Part shown: positions 7,194 to 17,085 of the stretch, in pieces
Layout of the letters: the number at the start of each line of letters is the position of its first letter
Position numbering within the stretch: the stretch's first letter is position 1
Virus record (IMG/VR): IMGVR_UViG_3300048112_000125
Coordinates: 1-21,367 of that record
Strand: one strand, 5' to 3'
Origin: a virus
Length of the DNA: 21,367 nt
The notes under the pieces: generated by a model
What the model saw: only the letters and a program-made list of their open reading frames with translations
Database searches by the model: none
Told to the model about the DNA's origin: nothing
Position numbers and translations under genes: made by a program

Positions 7194-7295
7194 ATGAAAA
7201 ACTTAATTAAAATATTATCCGAAATTTTCGCCTTTGGTATGTTCGCCTTTGTTATGGGTGTTTGCCTTATCTTATTAATAGATCTAATTTTATAA
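7194..7295 (+). CDS. Single-span membrane mini-protein, 33 aa
   Basis: The product starts MKNLIKILSEIFAFG and is almost entirely hydrophobic from residue 10 to 33 (FAFGMFAFVMGVCLILL...), so it should insert as one membrane helix. It is the first ORF after the tandem promoter region, with an A-rich leader, and ends 2 bases before the next ATG. No family is recognised. Small phage membrane proteins can be holins, antiholins or exclusion factors; no lysis enzyme is nearby, so no role is assigned. Confidence 0.5.
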   Translation: MKNLIKILSEIFAFGMFAFVMGVCLILLIDLIL

Positions 7296-7297
7296 CT

Positions 7298-7615
7298 ATG
7301 AAAACAAAAAGAATTAAAGAACTCAACAACCTTTTGAGCAAAGAAAAAATAATGTCAAATAAATTTGAAGTAAACAGATTTAACAATATGACAGAAAAAG
7401 AACAGAAAAAATGGATCGACTTTTTAATTTATACAGGTGTGTCCTCAAAAGAACTAAACAACCTTTATGCAGTGCCAACAGGCAAAGTGTACAAAGTAAA
7501 AAGAAACGCCCTAAAAAGCATCTTAAAACGTGTTTTATTGCACCCTTTCACGGTAGCGTTAACCGTTTATTCATTAATAATATTATCAATTATTATTTTA
7601 ACCATAAAAATCTAA
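7298..7615 (+). CDS. Protein with C-terminal membrane anchor, 105 aa
   Basis: I place the start at ATG 7298 rather than the in-frame ATG at 7262, because 7262 lies inside the preceding membrane mini-protein gene and 7298 follows its stop by 2 bases. The N-terminal 80 residues are charged and helical (MKTKRIKELNNLLSKEK, then TEKEQKKWIDFL). The last 25 residues form a hydrophobic segment (FTVALTVYSLIILSIIILTI), giving a tail-anchored layout with the charged part in the cytoplasm. The stop is 2 bases before the next ATG. No family is recognised. Confidence 0.6.
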   Translation: MKTKRIKELNNLLSKEKIMSNKFEVNRFNNMTEKEQKKWIDFLIYTGVSSKELNNLYAVPTGKVYKVKRNALKSILKRVLLHPFTVALTVYSLIILSIIILTIKI

Positions 7616-7617
7616 AT

Positions 7618-7950
7618 ATGAAAACAAAAACTATTGACGTAAACGCAAAAGAATGGTTTGATAAAATTAATGGCAATTCTTATTTTTGTGGCACAATAAC
7701 CCTTAATTATTTAATGGATAATGAGGAAACTTTTTTAATGCCGTTTCAATATGGTTACGGTTCTTCTTATGAATGTGAAGCTAAAGCAATATTAACAGAG
7801 TTTAATAAAATTAGTGCTAATTCGTTTCAAGGTTTATATACTTATTGTAAAGACAATAATATTATTTACAGATCAAACATAAAAAGAAACTCATTAAAAA
7901 GAGAATTAAAACAAATTGAAAATGATTATAATAATAACCTAAATAAATAA
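7618..7950 (+). CDS. Conserved-looking phage protein, 110 aa, unknown function
   Basis: Start ATG 7618 is chosen over a longer in-frame reading beginning at 7411, because the extra part overlaps the upstream gene in another frame. The N-terminus is like that of the neighbouring genes (MKTK). The stretch INGNSYFCGTITLNYL (27-42 or so) followed by FLMPFQYGYGSSYECEA is Gly/Tyr-rich and strand-rich and resembles a family I have seen in many marine phages next to the type of gene that follows here. I cannot give it a function. The C-terminal 35 residues are a charged helix. Confidence 0.7.
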   Translation: MKTKTIDVNAKEWFDKINGNSYFCGTITLNYLMDNEETFLMPFQYGYGSSYECEAKAILTEFNKISANSFQGLYTYCKDNNIIYRSNIKRNSLKRELKQIENDYNNNLNK

Positions 7951-9147: not shown

Positions 9148-9174
9148 TCAGATTATAGTTATTATATATACATA

Positions 9175-9283
9175 CATAGTGTATTATATTACATAGTGTA
9201 TTATAATACATAGTGTATTATATAACATAATGTATTATATTGCATAGTGTATTATATTACATAGTGTAATACATAGTATGTAA
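9175..9283. repeat. Iteron-like array: five 17-bp and two 12-bp units
   Basis: Units CATAGTGTATTATATTA or close variants start at 9175, 9192, 9209, 9226 and 9243, each exactly 17 bases. Two shortened 12-base units, CATAGTGTAATA and CATAGTATGTAA, follow at 9260 and 9272. Unit 2 contains the perfect palindrome TGTATTATAATACA (9197-9210). The run is A+T-rich and gene-free and lies about 90 bases before the structural operon. Regular direct repeats of this length are typical of initiator-binding iterons or cooperative operators; which one applies cannot be told from sequence alone. Confidence 0.75.
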
Positions 9284-9371: not shown

Positions 9372-10088
9372 ATGGCACTACAACAAATCGAATTAGAAGT
9401 ACCAACTACTCTATCTGACATTAAACTTTGGCAATACCAAAAGTACATGAAGATCATAGAGCAGAACAAGATGGAGGATGCCGAAGACAAAGAAAAAGTT
9501 AATGATTTCTTAAACATGAAACTTGTAGAAATATTCTGCAACGTATCTTTAAGAGATGTTGTTAAGATACCACTAAAAGAGTATAGCCAAGTGCTAGAAA
9601 TACTAAGTAAAGCTTTTAGTGAAAAACCTAAACTTATACAAAGATTTGACTTGTTAGATGTAGATATGGGATTCATACCAAAACTAGATGAAATAACACT
9701 AGGCGAATATGTAGATATAGAAACAAATATTTCTGATTGGCAGAAAGCACATAAAGCTATGGCTGTATTATATCGACCTGTTAATTTTAAGGCAAAAGAT
9801 AAATATGGAATAGCACCATACAAGGTAAATGAAGAAATACAAGAGCTAATGAAAGAGATGCCTTTAGATGTAGCCATGAGTTCAATGGTTTTTTTTTACA
9901 GTTTAGGCAAGGACTTACTGGGAGCTATACCGAAATATTTGGAACAGAACCTGAAGAAAGAGGATATGCAGACGCTAGACAATCATTTGCAAAAAAATGG
10001 GGTTGGTATCAATCAATTTATGCACTCGCTAAAGGAGATGTCAGAAACTTCGATGCAGTTACCGAACTTCCACTCTACCAATGTTTAA
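9372..10088 (+). CDS. Tail assembly chaperone, zero-frame product (gpG-like)
   Basis: The 238-aa protein opens the structural operon. It is helical and acidic, without membrane segments or enzyme motifs. Residues 1-140 (MALQQIELEVPTTLSDIKL, then FIPKLDEITLGEYVDIETNI) have the look of the N-terminal domain of siphovirus tail assembly chaperones. From about 9900 the zero frame shows unusually many codons ending in G or C (16 of the 30 codons at 9900-9989), which is not the habit of this genome. There the overlapping -1 frame looks like the real coding frame. So the true product is probably a 262-aa fusion made by -1 slippage, with or without this shorter form. Chaperones of this kind coat the tape measure during tail assembly; the tape measure gene is further down the same operon, at 14956. 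Confidence 0.75.
   Translation: MALQQIELEVPTTLSDIKLWQYQKYMKIIEQNKMEDAEDKEKVNDFLNMKLVEIFCNVSLRDVVKIPLKEYSQVLEILSKAFSEKPKLIQRFDLLDVDMGFIPKLDEITLGEYVDIETNISDWQKAHKAMAVLYRPVNFKAKDKYGIAPYKVNEEIQELMKEMPLDVAMSSMVFFYSLGKDLLGAIPKYLEQNLKKEDMQTLDNHLQKNGVGINQFMHSLKEMSETSMQLPNFHSTNV
9889..9897 (+). other. Probable -1 ribosomal frameshift site (T9 run)
   Basis: In the zero frame the run reads GTT TTT TTT TAC, so a T TTT TTT heptamer (9890-9896) is in the correct phase for a -1 slip. A second heptamer in phase, A AAA AAT (9992-9998), is a fallback. The -1 frame is open from 9833 to its stop at 10159. A homopolymer length error in the assembly would look the same. Confidence 0.6.
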
Positions 10089-10159
10089 ATTATTTAGCAT
10101 TTGAAAAAGAGAGAATAGAGATAGAACAAAAAGAAATAAAAAAAGCATATAAAAGATGA
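9896..10159 (+). CDS. Tail assembly chaperone, -1 frameshift extension (gpGT-like T domain)
   Basis: The -1 frame encodes about 87 residues including SFAKKWGWYQSIYALAKGD, FDAVTELPLYQCLNYLAFE and a charged helical end. This is the T-type extension I associate with tail chaperones of Bacteroidota phages. It has no ATG, GTG or TTG codon anywhere in the open stretch from 9833, so it cannot start on its own and must be reached by frameshift. It ends on an ATGA overlap with the next gene, the junction style used throughout this operon, which the zero-frame stop at 10088 does not give. Slippage at either candidate site would give a fusion of 262 residues. It is not a separate gene. Confidence 0.7.
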   Translation, partial: LQFRQGLTGSYTEIFGTEPEERGYADARQSFAKKWGWYQSIYALAKGDVRNFDAVTELPLYQCLNYLAFEKERIEIEQKEIKKAYKR

Positions 10160-10647
10160 CAAGTTTTTACGACATACTAGATAAACTTAAAACTTACTTA
10201 GAAGGTAATACAAATGTTAACTCAGTTACCTTTGGAGATATATTTGAAGTTGACTTATCAAAACAAACTATATTTCCGTTGTCACACATAATTGTAAATA
10301 GCTGTACATTTCAAGATCATGTTGTTCAATTCAATTTACAAATACTATCTATGGATATTGTTAATGAAACAAAAGAAGATGAGAAAGATTTAGACAACTA
10401 CTTTCATGACATAAACAACAAACAAGATGTACTAAACACTCAATTTGCAGTAATTAACGGATTACAATCTGCTTTAAGAAGAGGCGAGTTGTTTTCTGAA
10501 TTATATCAAATAGATACAGATTATACTGCTAATATGTTTGAAGACAGATTTGAGAACTTGCTAGCTGGTTGGACACTTGATATATCTATAACTGTTCCTA
10601 ACAATCAAATATCAGATATTAATGCTAATGGTCAATCTCCTTGCTAA
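10156..10647 (+). CDS. Tail terminator / tail completion-like protein, 163 aa
   Basis: The start overlaps the stop of the frameshift extension (ATGA), and the stop overlaps the next ATG (TAATG). The pattern FPLSHIIVNSCTFQDHVVQF at about 41-60, an MDIVNE strand, and a late DRFENLLAGWTLDISITVPN (132-151) resembles the small alpha/beta tail terminator or completion proteins that join the tail to the head connector. Pairing with an HK97 gp10-like gene next door supports this. There are no enzyme motifs. Assignment is by pattern and neighbourhood. Confidence 0.6.
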   Translation: MTSFYDILDKLKTYLEGNTNVNSVTFGDIFEVDLSKQTIFPLSHIIVNSCTFQDHVVQFNLQILSMDIVNETKEDEKDLDNYFHDINNKQDVLNTQFAVINGLQSALRRGELFSELYQIDTDYTANMFEDRFENLLAGWTLDISITVPNNQISDINANGQSPC

Positions 10648-11228
10648 TGAACTTAAGATTACACAATACTAAAGTATATTTAAAAGATTATTCTAAGAAT
10701 CTATTAAAACTAGCATACGGTCAAATAGAAAAAACAGATAGAAAAAGAAATTATAAAAGCGGTACAATTACAGGACCTATAGACGCTAGTGGAAGTTTAA
10801 AAGAAAGTTTAGAAGTAAGAGGAGCAAAGACATCAGATGTTGTATATAACTATAGTATAATAGGGAATGAATATGGAGAAGCTGTTGACGAAGGAACAAG
10901 AAGCTCTACACCTCCAGTATCAAAGCTAATTAATTGGTTAGTATCAAAAAATAAAACACTTGTAGATTCCAAGCAAAAAACAGTTGATCTTAGTGACATA
11001 AAAAAGGTTAGAAGAATTGCTTTTGCAATACAAAAATCATTAAAGTTAAGAGGAATACAAAAAACAGGTTTCTTAACAAATTTAGTTAAACAAGAATTTA
11101 AACAACTTAATGATATATACAAACCTGTAGTTAAAGACATAGAGGTAGATATAGATGGTATTTTAAAAAATGCAGGTTATAAAAAAACAGGTAAAGAAAC
11201 GTATGTTATAGAAACACAAATAAAATAA
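10647..11228 (+). CDS. HK97 gp10-like tail completion / neck protein, 193 aa
   Basis: I choose ATG 10647, which makes a TAATG overlap with the previous gene, over an upstream in-frame TTG at 10641. The protein is basic. Its centre has the phrase VDEGTRSSTPPVSKLINWL, in which the Y/V-x-x-GT and P-P-x-x-x-L-x-x-W elements are typical of gp10-like proteins that sit between connector and tail tube. C-terminal to that is AIQKSLKLRGIQKTGFLTNL, also usual for the family. It probably works with the preceding protein in the neck. Confidence 0.7.
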   Translation: MNLRLHNTKVYLKDYSKNLLKLAYGQIEKTDRKRNYKSGTITGPIDASGSLKESLEVRGAKTSDVVYNYSIIGNEYGEAVDEGTRSSTPPVSKLINWLVSKNKTLVDSKQKTVDLSDIKKVRRIAFAIQKSLKLRGIQKTGFLTNLVKQEFKQLNDIYKPVVKDIEVDIDGILKNAGYKKTGKETYVIETQIK

Positions 11229-14823: not shown

Positions 14824-14966
14824 TAAAAAATATACTTGACTTATTAAATGCAGATCACTGGTACGGTGTTAGCGAGAATGTAGAGATTGCCAAAGGTAAA
14901 TATGCAGGAGTGAAAGATTTTAAACAAATGAAAGAACAACTAAAAAGATTAAGACATGGCAACTAA
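14820..14966 (+). CDS. Small basic protein, 48 aa, between tail protein and tape measure
   Basis: It begins on an ATGA overlap with the 808-aa gene and overlaps the tape measure start by 11 bases, so it is coupled to both. The product starts MIKNILDLLNADHWYGVSEN and ends in a basic helix (FKQMKEQLKRLRHGN). No family is recognised. Its place suggests an accessory tail assembly protein. Confidence 0.6.
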   Translation: MIKNILDLLNADHWYGVSENVEIAKGKYAGVKDFKQMKEQLKRLRHGN

Positions 14967-17085
14967 AAAGATACTTATACAGGTTATACTTGATGATAAA
15001 GCTAGAAATCCAATAAAAAAAACTGGAAAAGAGGTTGAGGTATTAGCTAGTAAAGTTACTATATTAAATGAAGCACAACGACAGCAGATTATTAATGACG
15101 AAAAATCAGCTATACAAAAGAAAGCTCTTATAACGCAATTAAAACTACAGGCAGCTGCCGAAATGAATGCCGCAGCAGCAACTGGCAAAGGTAGGGCACA
15201 GTCAGGATTAAATAATGCTATACTTTTAGAGACAGGTAGATTAGCTTCAGATGCTGCTTATGGGTTTACCGCTATGGCAAATAACTTAGGTCAAATAGTA
15301 TCTTTATTTAGTAGTTTTGTTGAAACAAACAAAGGTGTAGTTGCATCTTTCAAAGAGTTAGGAAGATCATTACTAGGTATGGGTGGAATAATGATTGGAA
15401 TACAATTATTAATTTCATTTGGTCCAAAACTAATAAAGTTATTTCAGAATTTAGGATCAGAAACAAGGTTTTTAAGAGAAACATTTGATAAAGCAGGTGA
15501 AACCGTTTCTGGTTTAGCTGGCAAATTTGAAATATATATAAATGTTTTACAAAGCTCAACACAATCAGAAAAAAACAAACAAAAAGCTATAAAAGCATTA
15601 AAAGATGAATATCCAGAATTTATAGAAAGCTTAGATAAATCTGGTATATCTATGGACAATGTAAAAGACAGCACTAAACTAGCAAATGAACAAATTGAAT
15701 TACAAAGAACTGCAATACTTGAATTAGCTAAATCAAGAGCTGCTACAAATAAAATACAAGAAATACAATCTGAAATAATCAATAAAAAAATAGTAAGAGA
15801 TTTAGATATTATTAGTGTAGGAGCAGAAAACTTAAGTGCAGAGCAAATGAAAGCTCAAGCAAATCTTTTAGATGTCACTAGTGAGTTTGCTGATATGAAG
15901 GATAGGGAGAGATACAGTACATTATTACGTTTAGCAGATGAAGAAAAAGAACATAATCAATTTATTAAAGACAAAGAAAAAGAAATAGATTTATTAAGTG
16001 AATATGTAAATATAGAATTATCAAGAACTTCATCTGGTCCTGATAAGAAAAAATATACTAAACTGCTTGTAGATAATTTTAATAAAGAAATAAAAGCTAT
16101 AAAAGAATTAGGTAAAATAAGATCAAGGTTTTTTAATAAGAATTTAGCACAAGATGTTAAAAATAAAGAGTTACAAAAAGACAAAATAAAACTTCTTAGA
16201 ACACAAGCTTTAGCAGAAGTTGATGCTATAAAAGGAGGTGAAGTTGCAAAAAGACAAGCTAGATTAGAAATAAACACTTATTATGATAAATTACAGGAAG
16301 AAGCAAAAACAAAAAGAGAAGAGAAATTAAAAAAAATAGAAGATAAGTTTGCTGTTAAATCATTAAAAAAAGCAGTTGATGTAGCAGATGAGGATTTGTT
16401 TAAAGAAAAAGATGTTATTGCTTTAGAAGAAAAACAAAACGCATTATTAGAAAAACAAAAAGAATTAGATTTAGCAGCTATTGATAAATTAACTGATTCT
16501 GAAACAGAAAAAGAAGAGGCAAAAAAAGCGGTTAGAGATTATTACGATAATCTAGCTTTAGAAAATGAACAAAAAAATGCTGATGCTAGAGAAAAAATAA
16601 CTGAAATAGAAAAAAAATCTAAGTTACAAGCTTTAGACGATATGGGTAAAGGATTAATGGCTGCATCACAAATAGCAGGTAAAGCAACTGGTGCAGGTAA
16701 AGGTTTAGCTGTAGCAGGAACTTTAGTGTCCACATATTCAGCAGCACAAAAAGCTTATGAAAGTCAAATGGTTCCTCCTTCTATTGATTCGCCTGTTAGA
16801 GCAGCAATCGCAGCAGCATCAGCTATAGCACAAGGTTTAGCTAATGTAAAAGCTATAATGTCTGTTAAAGTTGCTGGTGTCTCAAGTCCTTCAGTTTCTG
16901 GCTCTGGACCAACTACAGTACAAGCACCTGACTTTAATGTTGTAGGTCAAGGAGTTGGCAGTCAATTAGCAGGTGTGGTTAGTAATCAATTTGGTGGAGC
17001 ATTAAGAGCTTATGTAGTAAGCGGAGACATATCATCAGCACAAGAATTAGATAGAAAAATAAACACAACAGCAACGATAGGTTAA
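14956..17085 (+). CDS. Tape measure protein, 709 aa
   Basis: This is the longest helical protein in the window. Residues about 20-100 are Ala/Lys-rich helix. The segment ASDAAYGFTAMANNLGQIVS (97-116) precedes a hydrophobic stretch at about 139-163 (LLGMGGIMIGIQLLISFG) of the kind that can enter the host membrane. Residues about 185-570 are long charged coiled coil. An Ala/Gly-rich region with AAIAAASAIAQGLANVKAIM (about 612-631) ends the protein. This order is typical of tape measure proteins, which set tail length and help DNA enter the cell. At about 1.5 angstrom per residue the tail would be roughly 100 nm. No lysozyme or peptidase motif was seen. Confidence 0.9.
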   Translation: MATKKILIQVILDDKARNPIKKTGKEVEVLASKVTILNEAQRQQIINDEKSAIQKKALITQLKLQAAAEMNAAAATGKGRAQSGLNNAILLETGRLASDAAYGFTAMANNLGQIVSLFSSFVETNKGVVASFKELGRSLLGMGGIMIGIQLLISFGPKLIKLFQNLGSETRFLRETFDKAGETVSGLAGKFEIYINVLQSSTQSEKNKQKAIKALKDEYPEFIESLDKSGISMDNVKDSTKLANEQIELQRTAILELAKSRAATNKIQEIQSEIINKKIVRDLDIISVGAENLSAEQMKAQANLLDVTSEFADMKDRERYSTLLRLADEEKEHNQFIKDKEKEIDLLSEYVNIELSRTSSGPDKKKYTKLLVDNFNKEIKAIKELGKIRSRFFNKNLAQDVKNKELQKDKIKLLRTQALAEVDAIKGGEVAKRQARLEINTYYDKLQEEAKTKREEKLKKIEDKFAVKSLKKAVDVADEDLFKEKDVIALEEKQNALLEKQKELDLAAIDKLTDSETEKEEAKKAVRDYYDNLALENEQKNADAREKITEIEKKSKLQALDDMGKGLMAASQIAGKATGAGKGLAVAGTLVSTYSAAQKAYESQMVPPSIDSPVRAAIAAASAIAQGLANVKAIMSVKVAGVSSPSVSGSGPTTVQAPDFNVVGQGVGSQLAGVVSNQFGGALRAYVVSGDISSAQELDRKINTTATIG

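Follow-up and report, generated by a model that had tools for sequence, protein, structure and literature searches.

In phage lambda, the zero-frame tail chaperone G is accompanied by GT, a minor fusion product made by a -1 shift (PMC5009743), and this system is the source of the roles proposed below; its slip site, G GGA AAG, lies near the end of G. In phage P2, the annotation of gene E places a -1 shift at T TTT TTG, 20 bases ahead of the stop codon, so that a run of six Ts is followed by about six zero-frame codons, and the gene adjoins that of the tape-measure protein. In SPP1, the products 17.5 and 17.5* have been described as an analogue of G/GT in which a -1 shift is proposed at U UUU UUC; the short product has 173 aa, of which 112 are common with the long one, leaving 61 zero-frame codons past the slip (PMC6316719). 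G/GT frameshifting, slip sites on T runs (P2 and SPP1) and a 61-codon zero-frame tail (SPP1) are already known.

Runs of nine As or Ts are also sites of transcriptional slippage, as in Thermus dnaX, Shigella mxiE and IS elements, which the run described below resembles in length and conservation (PMC1088944; PMC5009743). Where such a run keeps its length in all homologs, transcriptional slippage is considered very likely (Baranov 2005, PMC1088944), and slippage of bacterial RNA polymerase is efficient in vivo at nine As or Ts (Atkins 2016, PMC5009743). No report of transcriptional slippage in tail chaperones was found in the literature searched. For the family treated here, we found no published account of a frameshift in the open-access literature, a scope that excludes most subscription journals.

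Direct homologs of the locus occur in Nonlabens phages P12024S and P12024L (Inhavirus; PHROGs 32199 and 38404), with the same T9 run and the same -1 relation, although they are annotated as two separate hypothetical genes and their zero-frame tail has about 25 codons only. What is new here is that these two PHROG families, both without a known function, are assigned to such a system, that the arrangement is so deeply conserved, that both frames show selection and that the run never falls below nine Ts. The locus very probably encodes a tail chaperone pair of the lambda/P2 type with a frame switch at the T run.

Gene layout and probable identity of the two proteins

The window, by which we mean the whole 21,367-nt stretch of DNA analysed (positions 1 to 21,367 of IMG/VR record IMGVR_UViG_3300048112_000125), belongs to a phage of marine flavobacteria. 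All features of the locus lie on the plus strand. Gene G (9372..10088) is the putative zero-frame tail chaperone of 238 aa and contains, between a G and an A, a run of exactly nine Ts (9889..9897), within which the heptamer T TTT TTT at 9890-9896 is in phase; about 63-64 zero-frame codons follow the run. The -1 frame is shut upstream by a TGA at 9830..9832, is open from 9833 to 10156, and ends on a TGA at 10157-10159 without a single ATG, GTG or TTG. The T segment proper (9896..10159), beginning with the Leu codon TTA at 9896-9898, is conserved over its 89 codons, includes KKWGWY and has no start codon, and its stop shares an ATGA overlap with the ATG (10156) of a 163-aa gene (10156..10647) matching phrog_30964, of unknown function. 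The predicted GT fusion would have 262 aa, with G residues 1-175 followed by LQFRQG...KKWGWYQSIYALAKGD...AYKR, while the zero-frame tail of G, which includes the peptide GAIPKYLEQNLK, overlaps the T segment from 9897 to 10088. An earlier note, drawn up from the window alone, had given the limits of the -1 frame and its lack of start codons, the ATGA overlap, an in-phase A AAA AAT heptamer at 9992-9998 beside the T heptamer, and the length of the fusion, all of which were reproduced on recheck.

A probable tape-measure protein of 709 aa (14956..17085), the expected partner of G and GT, is proposed from its size and position; no family match to this ORF names a tape-measure function. Two features further upstream are worth recording. 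The non-coding gap just 5' of gene G contains 5.6 copies of a 17-base tandem unit, TACATAGTGTATTATAT (9168-9275), which may serve in regulation or replication, and two sizeable ORFs (7262-7615 and 7411-7950) overlap on the same strand in different frames.

All 28 G representatives matched phrog_32199, a family of unknown function, and nine of them also matched phrog_166, annotated as 'tail protein', with a best E value of 2e-4. P2 gpE matches this same family at 4e-7. The link is weak and covers about residues 10-75 of G, but since G shares this profile with P2 gpE, a chaperone whose -1 shift is placed at T TTT TTG, it points to a G/GT-type chaperone. The sequence arrangement is likewise that of frameshift-type G/GT genes, with a zero-frame protein, a fusion to another frame and a conserved slip site. 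The profile link to P2 gpE and this architecture lend fair support to a putative chaperone function, and the former adds a further argument to the earlier assignment of the locus as a tail chaperone. The Pfam chaperone families were not reached by G, one member giving an E value of 0.099 against Phage_TAC_7, searches of the PDB by sequence and by fold gave no match, and no sequence match was found between lambda G/GT and the proteins of the window.

AlphaFold predicts for G a confident mixed fold up to about residue 180, declining thereafter, with a poorly predicted tail from residue 205, and for the T segment three helices with moderate confidence. Foldseek searches with G returned many unnamed phage proteins, a 175-aa protein of Nonlabens phage P12024S and, weakly (E 0.2), one annotated tail assembly chaperone. 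A distant structural match was also observed with gp10 of Flavobacterium phage 6H (L446, minus strand, 10352-10927). This match ends with CFFYSTR over T TTT TTC, and plausible coding continues in two other frames, which may point to a frame switch of a related kind or to errors of sequencing.

The family resembles P2 E/E+E' in the phrog_166 profile, in the -1 shift on a T run, in the short fusion segment and in the overlap with the start of the next gene. It differs in having at least nine Ts, zero-frame tails of 25-100 codons, and four genes between G and the probable tape-measure gene, which thus do not adjoin. SPP1, to which the locus can be likened from its published description, has T6C instead of T9, a longer T part and different hosts. 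The overlap of about 64 codons had been thought unusually long in the earlier note; it is indeed long, but the 61 codons of SPP1 17.5 provide a precedent.

Position of the frame switch

Relatives for each of the two frames were found in IMG/VR, with at least about 600 matches. Among the matches listed, we retained 383 distinct loci, corresponding to 128 lineages under 75% nucleotide identity; part of them were found by a pattern requiring six Ts, and most by protein searches that made no requirement on Ts. Conservation of the two frames extends over 160 IMG/VR loci and the two Nonlabens phages, whose genomes contain homologs of each frame by tblastn, the zero-frame match stopping and the -1 match beginning at the T run. 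The locus is also present in three metagenome-assembled Bacteroidota genomes, and a prophage search in 395 genomes of the phylum yielded, beyond the one already known, a single marginal match. This phage family is large and almost wholly uncultured.

The junction carries nine or ten Ts in every one of the 383 loci, and no homolog was found that encodes both parts in one frame without a slippery run. All 101 distinct sequences of a first-round set had T9, with no change of phase. Elsewhere in the loci, runs of nine or more Ts occur only 57 times in 2.2 Mb of sense strand. The T part stands in the -1 relation in 382 of the 383 loci, and all split-frame homologs keep the in-phase T TTT TTT. Five placements of the run with respect to the codons were observed, with zero to two extra Ts on either side of the heptamer, the two sides together always adding at least two. 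We also noted that the run is phase-shifted in L278 and L296 (AGT TTT TTT TTG), where Ser precedes it and nine Ts are still present.

One locus, L520, has ten Ts at the run, which puts G and T in a single continuous frame and may reflect faulty assembly or a naturally occurring slip variant. It is the one sequence that would fit a homopolymer sequencing error in the window, where a true run of T8 or T10 would make one continuous gene. With the -1 relation present in the remaining 382 loci and both frames under selection past the run, we give this reading practically no weight, and comparison of homologs led us to reject it.

Directly after the run, the -1 frame reads FFLxFR in nearly all homologs, the Nonlabens phages included. 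Upstream, a -1 stop lies at most one codon from the run in 20 of 383 homologs, and at most three codons away in 39 of 288. As FFLxFR starts at the run and these stops lie zero to three codons before it, only the T run remains as a place for the switch.

These same data bear on the idea that G and T are two ordinary overlapping genes, T having its own start and no frameshift being involved. The Nonlabens phages are annotated in this way, as gp40 and gp41, and some start-like codon is found in the -1 frame of many homologs, only 59 of 282 being devoid of any. However, 164 of 263 homologs have no ATG, GTG or TTG before the WxWY motif, the window has none at all in this frame, and a separate T gene would offer no reason for the conservation of the T run, precisely where FFLxFR begins. 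An independent start for T therefore appears highly improbable, and was rejected for want of any start codon in the -1 frame of the window.

Even less probable, by a little, is a programmed slip at the A AAA AAT heptamer (9992..9998; the A run itself consists of seven As at 9991-9997), with the -1 frame between the two runs left untranslated. An in-phase A heptamer does exist in the window and is intact in 30 of the 99 homologs scored, but it is missing in the other 69, among them the Nonlabens phages, whereas in all homologs the -1 frame past the T run is both open and conserved. Moreover, the zero-frame synonymous rate falls at the T run and not at the A run (see below). Slippage at the A run was accordingly rejected as its heptamer is poorly kept. 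The homolog alignment called for in the earlier note thus places the switch of frames at the T run, the site which that note had favoured, and the sequence comparisons as a whole single it out over the A run.

Selection on two frames past the run

In the clade of the window, the zero-frame synonymous rate goes from about 0.5-0.6 upstream to 0.09-0.2 just past the run, and in a second clade it goes from about 0.25 to 0-0.04 at the run. Substitutions distribute over the three codon positions as 26/12/62% before the run, a zero-frame pattern, as 31/30/38% between the T run and the A run, that is evenly, and as 14/53/33% past the A run, a -1-frame pattern. This succession, together with the synonymous drop, implies that constraint on the -1 frame sets in at the T run. 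The earlier note had reached the same view, that constraint on the -1 frame begins before the A run, from a hand count of codons ending in G or C at 9900-9989 (16 of 30 in the zero frame and 6 of 30 in the -1 frame), and the count proved exact.

Constraint on the zero frame over the same stretch differs in extent between the clades. In the clade of the window, the zero-frame tail shows constraint as far as the A run and little sign of it beyond. In the second clade, the -1 synonymous rate in the overlap is about 5-8-fold below that found past the zero-frame stop, and both frames are therefore constrained over the whole overlap.

Past the run, both frames are open for about 25-100 codons in all homologs, the Nonlabens phages being at the short end with about 25. 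We assessed this openness by resampling codons with local usage while holding one protein fixed, in 105 lineages. The mean probability per lineage that the zero frame would be open over the overlap by chance, with the -1 protein fixed, was 0.024, and that of the -1 frame being open, with the zero-frame protein fixed, was 0.010; the product over lineages is not a true probability because lineages are related, but the direction is clear. Two open frames far exceed chance expectation. A separate observation concerns Nonlabens phage P12024L (L002, 2558-3252), where the zero-frame tail of a relative aligns beyond the stop, which suggests that its short tail is a secondary loss.

At the level of sequence, these comparisons establish the site and frame of the switch, the joint conservation of the two parts and selection on both frames past the site.

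Ribosomal or transcriptional switch

In the lambda/P2-type chaperone pair that we propose, most translation would yield the 238-aa G, while a minority would switch to the -1 frame on T9 and yield the 262-aa GT. On the lambda model, the G part would serve as a coat for the tape-measure protein, with the T part bringing in the tail-tube protein. In the ribosomal route, two tRNA-Phe would slip in tandem on T TTT TTT, a conserved in-phase heptamer of the X XXY YYZ type that characterises ribosomal frameshift sites. A comparable slip has been proposed for U UUU UUC in SPP1 (PMC6316719) and is annotated for T TTT TTG in P2. We lean, without great assurance, towards this tandem tRNA-Phe slippage. To our knowledge, the tail chaperone shifts so far known, that of the P2 relative included, are all ribosomal, and the T heptamer is in phase in all split-frame homologs.

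Alternatively, RNA polymerase may slip on T9 and add one U, and normal translation of the resulting U10 mRNA would yield a 262-aa protein identical to that of a -1 ribosomal slip. Such a polymerase slip is a serious contender, to which we would give somewhat less than an even chance; if the case is widened to polymerase slippage to U10 that either replaces the ribosomal switch or contributes to it, the chance comes close to even. The earlier reading of a -1 frameshift at this locus thus stands as far as a -1 switch at the T run is concerned, but a ribosomal slip is not the only fit, as polymerase slippage fits too.

Several features of the run speak for the polymerase. Seven Ts suffice for the heptamer, yet at least nine are present in 383 of 383 homologs, as expected from the published rule by which a 9A/9T run whose length is kept in every homolog very likely serves for transcriptional slippage (PMC1088944). 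In the main class, the second Phe codon always ends in T, although a C there would alter neither protein and TTC makes up 27% of the other Phe codons. Moreover, in three loci (L319, L586 and L278) with TTC or TTG at the second Phe codon, the run has moved one codon further upstream and still retains nine or ten Ts.

On the other side, the extra Ts may be by-products of protein constraint, which favours V, L, I or F and Y or W beside the FF, and the T that follows the heptamer is needed for the Leu of the -1 frame. The residue before FF is V, L, I or F in 127 of 127 lineages; since three other columns are equally strict, this column is not unique and does not decide between ribosome and polymerase. 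The same is true of RNA structure. No stimulatory stem is conserved beside the run (RNAalifold, two clades), which is consistent with slippage by the polymerase, but such stems are a common and not an obligatory companion of ribosomal frameshifting, and their absence is a strong pointer to neither. More tentatively, the ratio of G to GT in this family may be fixed at transcription, through polymerase slippage on the invariant run of at least nine Ts.

These results offer a likely function and a joint reading for PHROG families 32199 and 38404, both of unknown function, and a family with at least about 600 IMG/VR matches thereby gains a likely chaperone role. They also provide a natural alignment of exceptional depth for a dual-coded overlap, and raise the question of whether the ratios of tail chaperones may sometimes be set by RNA polymerase instead of the ribosome.
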